Of a DNA stretch of 64,000 bases, positions 2 through 8,849 are shown in pieces (position 1 is the first letter of the stretch; each line of letters begins with the position of its first letter). The notes under the pieces are model-generated. The model saw only the letters and a list, made by a program, of their open reading frames with translations. It did not search any database and was not told the origin of the DNA. The translations under genes and the position numbers were made by a program. This stretch comes from Gammaproteobacteria bacterium. GTDB lineage: Bacteria > Pseudomonadota > Gammaproteobacteria > SZUA-229. The stretch spans positions 1-64,000 of the forward strand of contig JAOUKV010000003.1 of the NCBI GenBank assembly GCA_029882355.1, given 5' to 3'.

Positions 2-1264
2 ACGCCCGATGTATTCAGCTTTATCGATCAGACTGATGTCACGCTCAGCACCCTCACCGAATCAGCGCCCATCACTGTAGCCGGCATTAACAGTGCCTCC
101 GCCATCAGCATCACCGGGGGTGAATACAGAATTGATGGTGGCGCTTACACCAGCGTCGACGGCACGGTCAGCAATGGCCAGAGCGTAACAGTACGCCACA
201 CCAGTTCGGCTGGTTTTGTAACCGCGACCGACACCACCCTCACCATTGGTGGCGTGAGTGATCTCTTTACTACCACAACAGTAAATATTGCAGCTCCTAC
301 CGGTCTCACTGTCGTCGCAGGTCAATATGCGGGTCAGGCCGAGCTTAGCTGGAGCAGCGTCACCGACGCTACGGAATATTCGCTCTATTACGCCACCGAG
401 AGCTTCGCCAGCCTGGCTGACATTGCCAACTACGCCAGCCTTGCCAATGGGGTTATGCTCAGCAATCAAACCAGCCCCGCTACCATTCGCAACCTTAACA
501 ACAATACGACCTACTACTTTGTCATCACCTCCGGGAATGGCAGTACCGAAAGTTCGGCCAGTAGCGAGGTTTCTGTTTTAGTTTACGCGCCGCTCAACGA
601 CACCGGCATTACCACCTGTTCCGATGCGGCTAACAACGGCCTTGCCTGTCCACAAACCGGCTTTGAGGGGCAGGATGCCGAGTACGGTCGTGACGTTACC
701 GCCAACGACGATACCGACGGACATACCGGCTTTAGCTTCACCAAGCTCAACAGCGCCGGCACCCCGCTCGCTGACCAAACGGTCGCCTACGCCACTACCC
801 CCTGGTCTTGTGTGCAGGACAATGTCACCGGCCTGATGTGGGAGGTAAAAACCACCAGCGGACTGCAAAGCAGCGCCCACACCTACACCTGGTACAACAG
901 CGACACCGCCAGCAACGGCGGCAATCTCGGAATCACCAATGGCGGAACCTGTTTTGATGTCATTAACTGTGATACTGAGAAATTTGTCGCGGCTGTCAAT
1001 GCGGCTGCTTTGTGTGGAGCGAGTGACTGGCGTCTTCCGGACAAAGAAGAGCTCTCATCCCTGGTAGACAGCAGTGTCGCCTTTCCCGGTCCCGCCATTG
1101 ATACAGGCTGGTTTCCCAATACGGCTGCTTTTCTTTACTGGTCGGCCTCGCCATTTGCCAGCTATTCGTTCGACGCGTGGCGCGTGAGTTTCAACACTGG
1201 CAGTGTCCTAAACTTCAATAAGAACAATGCCTTCTCTGTTCGTCTCGTGCGCGGCGGACAGTGA
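2..1264 (+). CDS. Fibronectin-III/DUF1566 surface protein, 5' end outside window (probable DGR variable protein 1)
   Basis: The reading frame is open from base 2, so the N-terminus lies to the left; the GTG at 254 is internal. Visible order: a bacterial surface-protein repeat with G-G-E-Y and V-R-H-T-S-S signatures (bases 2-250), a fibronectin type III-like segment (about 290-580), then a DUF1566 (Lcl C-terminal) domain with G-L-M-W, D-W-R-L-P and Y-W-S-A-S-P motifs. It ends V-R-L-V-R-G-G-Q. The domain has a C-type-lectin-like fold in related DGR target proteins. The last ~45 codons align gap-free with the next gene and vary mainly in the first two codon bases (see VR1). Role is inferred to be ligand display at the cell surface. 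The domain call is solid; function is not known. Confidence 0.85.
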   Translation, partial: TPDVFSFIDQTDVTLSTLTESAPITVAGINSASAISITGGEYRIDGGAYTSVDGTVSNGQSVTVRHTSSAGFVTATDTTLTIGGVSDLFTTTTVNIAAPTGLTVVAGQYAGQAELSWSSVTDATEYSLYYATESFASLADIANYASLANGVMLSNQTSPATIRNLNNNTTYYFVITSGNGSTESSASSEVSVLVYAPLNDTGITTCSDAANNGLACPQTGFEGQDAEYGRDVTANDDTDGHTGFSFTKLNSAGTPLADQTVAYATTPWSCVQDNVTGLMWEVKTTSGLQSSAHTYTWYNSDTASNGGNLGITNGGTCFDVINCDTEKFVAAVNAAALCGASDWRLPDKEELSSLVDSSVAFPGPAIDTGWFPNTAAFLYWSASPFASYSFDAWRVSFNTGSVLNFNKNNAFSVRLVRGGQ

Positions 1265-1270
1265 TTTTTG
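1133..1270 (+). repeat. Putative DGR variable repeat VR1
   Basis: This is the 3' end of the first DUF1566 gene. It aligns without a gap to 1728-1865 (offset 595). At 17 codons (for example 1154 TTT versus CAT, 1163 TAT versus CTT, 1181 CGC versus TAC, 1202 AGT versus TTT) the first two bases differ while 14 of 17 third bases are the same. The intervening codons (GCG-TGG, GTG-AGT, GGC, GTC, AAT-AAG) are constant. A 33-bp block, 1238-1270, is identical to 1833-1865 and runs past the stop codon, as expected for an IMH-like element. Calling it a VR is inference, because no template repeat is in view. Confidence 0.75.
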
Positions 1271-1328
1271 ACATTGGCTTGTTGCCGTGCAACGTGACAG
1301 ATAAATGAACGAATACAGGAGATAATAT

Positions 1329-1859
1329 ATGAACAAGACACACTTTATGCGACTGTTACTGGCTACACTGCTGCTGGGCGCTCAACCGTTGTTGGCTCAG
1401 ACTTGTAGCAACAGTGTTACCGCTACCGCCCCCGATAGCCGTTATACCGATAACCTTGATGGTACGGTTACCGATAACCAAACCGGCCTGATGTGGCGTC
1501 AGTGTTCGGAAGGGCTGAGCACCACGGACACGGCATGTGATACTGGCAGTGCCGTACCCTACACCTGGCAGGTTGCTTTGCAACAGGTGCAGACTATCAA
1601 TGTCACTGGTTTTGCGGGTTATACCGACTGGCGCCTGCCCAACCATAATGAACTCACCTCTCTTTTAGAAAATAGTTGCTTCAGTCCAGCCATTAATACG
1701 ACAGCCTTCCCCGTTACACCTGCTTTTAATTACTGGTCGGCATCGCCGCATGCCAACCTTCCGGGCAGCGCGTGGTACGTGAGTTTTAACCATGGCTTTG
1801 TCGACAGTAGCAATAAGACCCTTGCCTACAGAGTTCGTCTCGTGCGCGGCGGACAGTGA
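1329..1859 (+). CDS. Secreted DUF1566 protein (probable DGR variable protein 2)
   Basis: A 176-aa protein with a Sec signal peptide (about residues 1-24, ending L-L-A-Q) followed directly by one DUF1566 domain: G-L-M-W near residue 56, D-W-R-L-P near 101, Y-W-S-A-S-P near 136, end V-R-L-V-R-G-G-Q. The start is supported by AGGAGA (1317-1322) upstream of the ATG. It lies 64 bp behind the larger DUF1566 gene, so it is probably co-transcribed. The C-terminal 45 codons match the first gene's in length and framework but differ at A-mutable positions. It is thus a compact, probably exported binding protein. The ligand is unknown. Confidence 0.85.
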   Translation: MNKTHFMRLLLATLLLGAQPLLAQTCSNSVTATAPDSRYTDNLDGTVTDNQTGLMWRQCSEGLSTTDTACDTGSAVPYTWQVALQQVQTINVTGFAGYTDWRLPNHNELTSLLENSCFSPAINTTAFPVTPAFNYWSASPHANLPGSAWYVSFNHGFVDSSNKTLAYRVRLVRGGQ

Positions 1860-1865
1860 TTTTTG
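1728..1865 (+). repeat. Putative DGR variable repeat VR2
   Basis: Partner of VR1 at 1133-1270. Variable codons here are mostly NNY (AAT, CAT, AAC, CTT, GGC, AGC, TAC, CAT, TTT, GAC, AGT, AGC, ACC, CTT, TAC). That is what adenine-specific mutagenesis of a template rich in AAY codons produces. After base 1865 the two loci lose all similarity, so homology stops just past the stop codon, as in DGR retrohoming. Confidence 0.75.
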
Positions 1866-6873: not shown

Positions 6874-7245
6874 ATGAAACATCGATTAATTATACCTTCG
6901 CTGGTTGCGGCTTTATTTTTGTCTACCGGGCTCACCGTCTCGGCTGAGCCTCAATCGGGTTACATTGAGCCGCTGATGTCACAGCAGGAGATGTTCCAGT
7001 TTCATGAACGTATGCGTTATGCCCGAACCCCACAGGAGCGTGAGCAGATACGTCAGGAGCATCACCAGTTAATGCAGCAAAGAGCAAACGCGCGCGGGTT
7101 TTCAATTCCTGATTTATCGCCAATGAATGATGCATGCAGACACATGGGACCGGGATATATGGGTCCTGGCTACATGGGACCTGGACATATGAACCCCGGC
7201 TATATGGGCCCGGGTTATATGGGCCCTGGATATATGCACCGGTGA
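6874..7245 (+). CDS. Secreted protein with C-terminal M-G-P-G-Y repeats
   Basis: 123 aa with a clear AGGAGA ribosome-binding site and signal peptide (cleavage near V-S-A-E, residue 24). The mature part has a charged helical region with repeated arginine/glutamate and histidine (F-H-E-R-M-R-Y-A-R-T-P-Q-E-R-E), then six tandem pentapeptides of the type M-G-P-G-Y (residues 91-120, bases 7144-7233). The Met- and His-rich composition resembles periplasmic metal-binding proteins. That role is inference. The 3' end abuts a duplicated gene fragment. Confidence 0.8.
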   Translation: MKHRLIIPSLVAALFLSTGLTVSAEPQSGYIEPLMSQQEMFQFHERMRYARTPQEREQIRQEHHQLMQQRANARGFSIPDLSPMNDACRHMGPGYMGPGYMGPGHMNPGYMGPGYMGPGYMHR

Positions 7246-7350
7246 GCAATTAGCCCGGATGCGGCTATGCTGGATCCGGGCTATTCACTTCAAATCCCAA
7301 ACGCATCAACCATCCAGGTTGCGCCATCGAGTCTTGCTTCTGGGTTCTGC
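7245..7350 (-). pseudogene. Remnant of the 3' end of the 4847-5350 gene
   Basis: About 106 bp with only a few mismatches to 4802-4907, covering the CCCGGATGCGG hairpin and the last ~20 codons (on the minus strand, ...W-M-V-D-A-F-G-I) of the intact gene. The rest of the gene is gone. Together with 5579-5700 it shows a duplicated block with reciprocal loss. Confidence 0.8.
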
Positions 7351-7427
7351 TCGTAAATACAATTGGTCTAGCGTAATCGTAGCTACATAACTACTTTTGA
7401 TTTTTATGCCACACCCCACAAGACACA

Positions 7428-8849
7428 CTATTGAAACAAACCGCCACCAACATTTTCACGTATTTCAATATGCAGATGGTCGTGATGTGCCTTGTTGTAA
7501 TGCGGCGTTAATATCCAGTGGAAAATACCCTGCTCTGCTATTTTGCAGGTGATTTTACGCAGGCTTGTTTGTTTATCCGAATCGTCTTCACCCTCAAGAC
7601 ACGGATCGACATTTTTTCTTCGATCGCCCCAGTCCTTTTTTATTTCCATGACTTCGCCATCGGCGGTGACCAGTCGTGCAATATCCAGCGCGAGTGCATA
7701 GTGGTGGCCACTGGTTCGGCCCTTGCCGCCGACGCGGGCACCGTGACTATGGGCGCGCATGTGATAAATATTGCTAATACCAAATTCTTTTAATACCGGT
7801 CCAATACCTGCCATGGCGACGACCAGCCGGCAGTCCATAACAGAATGTTTTTTTGAACCGGCGACGTGCTTGTAATGAATGCCTGCGATGGGTGAGAGTA
7901 CCTGCACAGGGTATTTGACAGCGCCGGTTGCAGCGATACGTTTGTACTCGATATTATTTTTATCGAGAAATTCAAAGCACTGCGCCTCGGTCATATCAAT
8001 AAGACGCAGACCGTTCATACCAAGGCTGTTGTCGGCCAGGTAGCGCGGGTCCTGCCAGCGCTCTTCGGGGTCTACACCCTTGCTAATCAGGTAGGCGAGA
8101 AAGGCTTCATACTTTGCCATGTCCTTTTCTTCGGCATATCCCATGCTGGAAAACACCTGCATATATGGCGTGCGCCCATGCTTGTTCTTTTCAGTGAAGT
8201 TCATACCGGCCTCGATCAGCAACCGTGCATTATTCAGGTGCCCATTGTTGATAGCGATTTCCAGTAAGGTTTTAAAACTACTACCGCTGTTATTTATATC
8301 GGCGCCGTGCTCAAGCAATAATTCAATCATTGCTTCGTTGTCTTCTTTGCCTACGGCAATGCTTAATGGTGTGCTCCAGGTTGAATCACCGTTGATATCA
8401 GCACCCTGCTCAAGCAGTTCTTCGACTGTTTCGATGTCACCGGCACGCACGGCATCATTCAATTGTGCTGTTGCTTTTCGTTGCTGCTTTACCTGTTCGC
8501 CTTCTTCGATGAAGTAGATTTTTACTACGGTTTCGTAAGACAGTGACCTATAACTGGAATGATTACCTTCTTTGCTAAGTAGCAAACTTAACCTGTCAGG
8601 TTGAATCGAATAATTATCGAATCCACCTTCATGAAAACTATCAGGACCGGTCTGAACAATAATTCGGTCACCGATACTCACACCTTTATCGTCCAGCATA
8701 TCAACAACACGCGCCTTATCTGGCGAGTCAAGCTGGCTGGATTGAAAGTCAGCTAATCCGGGGGCTTTTGATGGTGCTGGTGAGCAACCAGCCAGCATTA
8801 ATATTAAAGTGACCAGTACAGCACGGCGGGTAAATAGCGGGCTTTTCAT
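7428..8849 (-). CDS. Ankyrin-repeat lipoprotein with extensin-like (LAS-type peptidase) C-terminal domain
   Basis: 473 aa. A lipoprotein signal with lipobox L-A-G-C places C22 as the lipidated residue. About three ankyrin repeats follow near residues 125-240 (A-V-R-A-G-D-I-E-T-V-E-E-L-L; T-P-L-S-I-A-V). The C-terminal half is an extensin-like/DD-carboxypeptidase-type domain with zinc-ligand motifs S-G-H-H-Y-A-L-A-L-D-I and H-H-D-H-L-H-I-E. By family analogy it cleaves peptidoglycan or anchors to it, with ankyrins mediating protein contact. The 3' end is duplicated as a fragment at 5579-5700. Ankyrin plus extensin in one lipoprotein is an uncommon combination. Confidence 0.85.
   Translation of the reverse strand: MKSPLFTRRAVLVTLILMLAGCSPAPSKAPGLADFQSSQLDSPDKARVVDMLDDKGVSIGDRIIVQTGPDSFHEGGFDNYSIQPDRLSLLLSKEGNHSSYRSLSYETVVKIYFIEEGEQVKQQRKATAQLNDAVRAGDIETVEELLEQGADINGDSTWSTPLSIAVGKEDNEAMIELLLEHGADINNSGSSFKTLLEIAINNGHLNNARLLIEAGMNFTEKNKHGRTPYMQVFSSMGYAEEKDMAKYEAFLAYLISKGVDPEERWQDPRYLADNSLGMNGLRLIDMTEAQCFEFLDKNNIEYKRIAATGAVKYPVQVLSPIAGIHYKHVAGSKKHSVMDCRLVVAMAGIGPVLKEFGISNIYHMRAHSHGARVGGKGRTSGHHYALALDIARLVTADGEVMEIKKDWGDRRKNVDPCLEGEDDSDKQTSLRKITCKIAEQGIFHWILTPHYNKAHHDHLHIEIRENVGGGLFQ

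Follow-up and report, generated by a model that had tools for sequence, protein, structure and literature searches.

Tandem DUF1566 genes at a gammaproteobacterial contig end as probable relict targets of a diversity-generating retroelement

The window, a 64,000-nucleotide stretch of a gammaproteobacterial assembly (GCA_029882355.1; 62 contigs, 2.88 Mb, 98.46% complete), opens with two tandem genes, T1 and T2, both with open reading frames and both ending in an Lcl_C domain that carries a variable repeat at its C-terminus. Window base 1 is the first base of the contig that carries the window (C29; JAOUKV010000003.1), and because the contig starts within T1 the locus is only partly assembled; comparison of the T1 5′ part with the other contig ends of the assembly gave no match and hence no join for the left end. 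The features of the locus are as follows.

2..1264, + strand: target gene 1 (T1), open reading frame truncated 5′ by the contig boundary; Lcl_C/DUF1566 domain at the C-terminus, also an fn3-like domain
1139..1261, + strand: variable repeat 1 (VR1), C-terminus of T1; matches a relative's template repeat, 5′ boundary approximate
1238..1270, + strand: identical 33-bp block, copy 1; IMH-like 3′ boundary, stop codon and 6 further bases
1265..1328, + strand: spacer between T1 and T2, 64 bp; the site of avd-TR-RT in complete relatives, with no remnant detected
1329..1859, + strand: target gene 2 (T2), open reading frame of 176 aa; Lcl_C/DUF1566 domain and hydrophobic N-terminus, signal-peptide-like by eye
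1734..1856, + strand: variable repeat 2 (VR2), C-terminus of T2; matches a relative's template repeat, 5′ boundary approximate
1833..1865, + strand: identical 33-bp block, copy 2; IMH-like

The Lcl_C family (PF07603, equivalent to DUF1566) was matched by T2 at an E value of 4.1e-40 and by T1 at 1.3e-29, with a further match in T1 to fn3 (5e-5) falling just short of the fn3 cut-off. As to whether the variable residues share one face of a C-type-lectin fold, the AlphaFold2 model obtained was of very low confidence (mean pLDDT 39.9, from 7 sequences). Third-codon G+C is 0.63 in T1 and 0.56 in T2, against a median of 0.42 over 32 other long reading frames, and none of the congeners searched carries the repeat, which together suggest that the pair was acquired by horizontal transfer. 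The right-flank gene is DUF2238-like; the congeners G006 and G003 each have an ortholog, but neither T1/T2 nor any other window neighbour lies beside it there, so that synteny gives no position for the lost part of the locus. Further 3′ of T2, at 2016-2055, lie paired GGGGTCAGA / GGGGTCAAA motifs that may be the scar of a mobile element. These are presumably of the kind that flanks REP-associated transposase genes.

The original prediction, that the 3′ ends of the two genes are variable repeats of a diversity-generating retroelement (DGR), rested on their resemblance to each other, and most of that description held when they were compared codon by codon at an offset of 595. The alignment runs without gaps over about 45 codons, the 33-bp block across the stop codon is identical and similarity between the genes ends directly after it. 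Of 17 codons said to have changed at their first two bases, all 17 differ at base 1 and/or base 2, but only 12 differ at both; the third base is the same in 14 of the 17, as first described, and in 10 of those 12. In the 45 codons that precede the stop, T1 and T2 differ at 13, 16 and 6 first, second and third positions, respectively. On their 3′ side, VR1 is followed by no more than a 5-bp stem and VR2 by no stem, so a DGR-type cruciform is not claimed.

The first 24 bases of the 33-bp block were searched for exact matches in 84,980 species genomes, returning 22 stretches, mostly gammaproteobacterial. Several of these (L031, L040/L036, L047/L030 and L051) are DGR loci with a reverse transcriptase (RT) containing GNLTSQ and YVDD motifs and a flanking pair of DUF1566 genes that have VRLVRGGQ at their ends, and the 24-mer itself is exact in the complete cassettes L031, L047 and L051. 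In all complete relatives examined the order is T1 - avd - TR - RT - T2, with the cassette between the targets. Between the template repeat (TR) of L051 and the two variable repeats of that locus there are 20 and 16 differences, every one at a template adenine, and TR-VR mismatches at non-adenine sites across the complete cassettes number 0/54, 0/54, 0/51 and 0/51. The T2 of the window is 52-54% identical to the T2 of the RT-bearing loci L031, L051 and L047, and to that of L045, a locus that lacks an intact RT. Two further features of these cassettes were observed. In the Thiodictyon cassette (L031:5091-5250) the TR lacks its 3′ half and runs straight into an RT that lacks its start, through either deletion or assembly collapse. 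The L051 RT (L051:700-2301) has a C-terminal extension of ~170 residues (residues ~365-534) that Pfam does not recognise.

The template repeat of L047, from a Thiocystis MAG (hereafter TR47), was used as reference over the 87 bases that precede the IMH core (51 non-adenine and 36 adenine sites), and being a relative's template it may differ in sequence from the native one. VR1 matched TR47 at 47/51 non-adenine and 18/36 adenine sites (Fisher 1.1e-5) and VR2 at 45/51 and 17/36 (Fisher 7.1e-5), although the sites are not strictly independent and selection could place variable surface residues on template adenines, for which reason retention of third bases and the match at non-adenine sites weigh most. 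At the 15 AAY codons of TR47 the third base is kept at 13/15 in each window repeat, compared with 4/15 in the ordinary DUF1566 gene that this genome carries on contig C49. Values similar to those of the window repeats were obtained for the variable repeats of the sister cassette L031 (44-45/51 non-adenine, 17-18/36 adenine), and the repeats of G059, a genome of the window's own family, differ at template adenines in 20/29 cases (P 2.6e-4). Differences between VR1 and VR2 also fall on TR47 adenines, at 23 of 29 in an 87-bp interval with adenine at 36/87 sites (hypergeometric P 4e-7), a pattern beyond chance as scored against the template of an independent relative.

These comparisons bear on whether T1 and T2 could be ordinary tandem paralogs shaped by diversifying selection or gene conversion, with a DGR never involved. 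Many DUF1566 genes are indeed not DGR targets, and C49 (G000:C49:2616-3056, L017), the third DUF1566 gene of the genome, is one such gene, with other codons at the RLVR motif and no adenine-specific pattern (24/51 non-adenine and 17/36 adenine sites matched to TR47, with no clear contrast). However, in T1 and T2 third bases are kept while bases 1 and 2 change, the template of a distant genome is matched at non-adenine sites only, and 24 bp of the 3′ block are exactly identical to complete DGR cassettes; the contrast between adenine and non-adenine sites largely refutes an ordinary paralogous origin, which we regard as barely credible. A tandem DUF1566 pair in another genome (G014) was dropped as a candidate DGR target pair, having no simple DGR pattern in an ungapped comparison. 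On the evidence of these alignments, the repeats of T1 and T2 are genuine DGR variable repeats whose 3′ boundary is IMH-like, as originally predicted, and the prediction's appeal to DUF1566 proteins as established DGR targets agrees with the literature (PMC4159848, PMC6642488).

The machinery for such a system was not detected. No RVT_1 domain was found in the assembly with a Pfam model that picks up the relatives' DGR RTs, and a similarity search of the genome with DGR RTs returned no match other than the repeats themselves. Chance matches of 18 bp apart, no third copy of the repeat, and hence no native template, came up in the genome at E <= 10, nor any Avd in a search that recovered two complete cassettes and L045 as positive controls. 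A profile built from four DGR RTs, which detects the relatives, found no DGR RT in 54 genomes of the order; the strongest RVT_1 matches scanned in the family and order were of group II intron type and were rejected as DGR RTs. The original prediction held that the lack of any template or DGR RT in the genome would refute it; none of TR, DGR RT or Avd was found, so in that respect the assembly contradicts it. Their absence speaks against a DGR that still works, but it does not speak against a DGR origin of the repeats.

A complete working DGR could nevertheless exist in the species, with avd-TR-RT unassembled (either 5′ of the truncated T1 or at another site from which it acts in trans) or present in only part of the population. 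The contig does terminate within T1 and the assembly is 98.5% rather than 100% complete, and in Thiohalocapsa PB-PSB1 target loci without an RT either underwent diversification in trans or occurred alongside intact variants (PMC10907252). Against this, all complete relatives have the cassette between their two targets, a place occupied here by 64 bp, so the original suggestion of a template and RT to the left or in trans was not borne out; RT, Avd and TR are all missing from the assembly, the RT is missing from all 54 genomes of the order that were searched, and non-adenine changes have accumulated in the window repeats (see below). This alternative is considered rather unlikely, but it carries more weight than the others.

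Diversification in trans by an RT visiting on a phage or plasmid was also considered, and is judged highly improbable. In its favour, the 21-bp IMH core recurs in an Lcl_C gene of a phage contig that also has a terminase gene (L074), and phage and plasmid records contain DGR-like RTs of 30-43% identity. However, no phage or plasmid record searched contained the repeat, no confirmed relative of this RT family was encoded on the viral contigs searched and no template partner is known. The gene on the phage contig (L074:12226-12858; IMG/VR UViG 3300000151_000012, terminase large subunit at 7217-8824) has the IMH core inside its reading frame, not at the end, and matches TR47 at 43/51 non-adenine sites. 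As a separate observation, the C-terminal extension of the L051-type RT was not covered by any phage or plasmid DGR-like RT match among those listed.

Partial cassettes were observed at the same place in several relatives. L045 has avd joined to RT residues 428-514, L043 has kept avd and a C-terminal piece of the RT, and L050 has kept avd together with RT residues 202-214 and 469-509. In G059 only an avd stub of ~30-36 codons with an in-frame TGA is left, joined directly to T2, and a second locus of that genome has kept avd 16-45. As the breakpoints differ, several of these deletions look independent, with the qualification that three of the deletion loci (among L043, L045, L050 and G059) are short MAG contigs in which chimeric assembly is possible. 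The arrangement of avd followed by or fused to the RT C-terminal part (residues ~400-530; L045:4763-5356, L043:708-1157, L050:1747-2228) may represent deletion scars or, alternatively, a retained small protein of Avd and the C-terminal domain. The exact 24-mer was also found in DUF1566 genes of two isolate genomes, Marinobacterium iners DSM 11526 (L039), with three such genes in tandem, and Lamprocystis purpurea DSM 4197 (L037); neither matched the DGR RT profile, making these further candidate targets without an RT. No similarity to Avd or RT was found in the 64-bp spacer of the window, and because it holds no such remnant the deletion there is inferred from the relatives and not from a scar.

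The repeats themselves show signs of ageing. Non-adenine changes private to one repeat occupy 6/102 sites in the window pair compared with 0/210 in four repeats of complete cassettes (P 0.001), as scored against a relative's template, such that two of the six (1161 and 1166) might be adenine, or otherwise differ, in the native one. Third-position differences number 5/32 in the window pair compared with 0/12, 0/13 and 0/22 in complete cassettes (P 0.009). An accumulation of random mutations is expected after DGR inactivation (PMC3521204). The RT-less pair of L045 shows 0/24 third-position differences, however, so a locus without an RT can look fresh, which favours the possibility of a working DGR outside the assembly; the still identical 33-bp block and the two intact reading frames also fit recent activity.

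What the comparisons establish is an adenine-specific divergence from a relative's template, the same IMH core as in complete cassettes, an orthologous target pair, and the lack of RT, TR and Avd in the assembly. The explanation we favour, with reasonable though far from full confidence, is that T1 and T2 are relict DGR targets whose cassette was deleted and whose diversification has stopped. They would be the paralogous target pair of a DGR arranged as T1 - avd - TR - RT - T2, which is seen in Chromatiaceae purple sulfur bacteria (Thiocystis, Lamprocystis and Thiodictyon) and some other gammaproteobacteria. Adenine-mutagenised cDNA of one AAY-rich template repeat would have replaced both 3′ ends up to the shared IMH, after which the avd-TR-RT block, which probably once lay between T1 and T2, would have been removed by deletion, given that the block is absent here and that relatives have lost it stepwise at the corresponding place. 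With that loss diversification would have ended, and because it had stopped, ordinary mutations would have begun to gather at non-adenine sites of both repeats. Two lectin-like surface proteins would have been kept with their binding surfaces fixed; from the family, the hydrophobic N-terminus of T2 and the fn3-like domain of T1, the products may be fixed lectin-like surface receptors or adhesins.

A wider trend is possible, but is put forward tentatively and with less confidence than the relict state of this locus. Within the DUF1566 DGR lineage, the mutagenic core (TR and RT, with more or less of avd) may have been deleted repeatedly while both targets were kept, such that 'diversify, then freeze' would be a recurrent route from a hypermutation system to a fixed receptor pair, with the window as its scarless end state. 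Such loss, if it does recur, is relevant to the question of whether accelerated evolution is maintained or turned off after a useful binding surface has been found. DGR surveys seeded by an RT or by a TR-VR pair would miss the window locus, and an IMH-seeded search scored by third-base retention detects such RT-less targets; the pair of repeats in T1 and T2 also offers a simple two-repeat clock for the time since the last diversification.

Among known systems, the closest are the DGRs of an uncultured Thiocystis (NZ_CAIPNF010000144.1; L030/L047) and of Lamprocystis (NZ_CAIZIZ010000155.1; L051), which share with the window the two DUF1566 targets and their order, the IMH core, the length of the variable repeats, the places of the AAY codons and a T2 of 52-54% identity, but which have avd, TR and RT between their targets where the window has 64 bp, with none of these in its assembly. 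Both inactivated DGRs (PMC3521204) and RT-less or remote targets (PMC10907252, PMC7517822) are already known. The inactivated DGRs of the DiGReF survey have likewise lost a functional RT, but through a nonsense mutation, frameshift or insertion beside an intact VR and TR, whereas the window is without RT, TR or avd (PMC3521204). The remote variable proteins of cyanobacteria are also targets away from any RT, but have a matching TR elsewhere in those genomes (PMC7517822). In Thiohalocapsa PB-PSB1, DGR loci that are incomplete or invaded by MITEs resemble the window in having targets without an RT or TR of their own, but there another genomic TR or intact population variants explain continued diversity, whereas no TR or RT was found here (PMC10907252). 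A literature search found no description of such a recurrent core deletion, most subscription journals being outside its reach, and the part that may be new is the repeated deletion of the core with both targets kept in this lineage.
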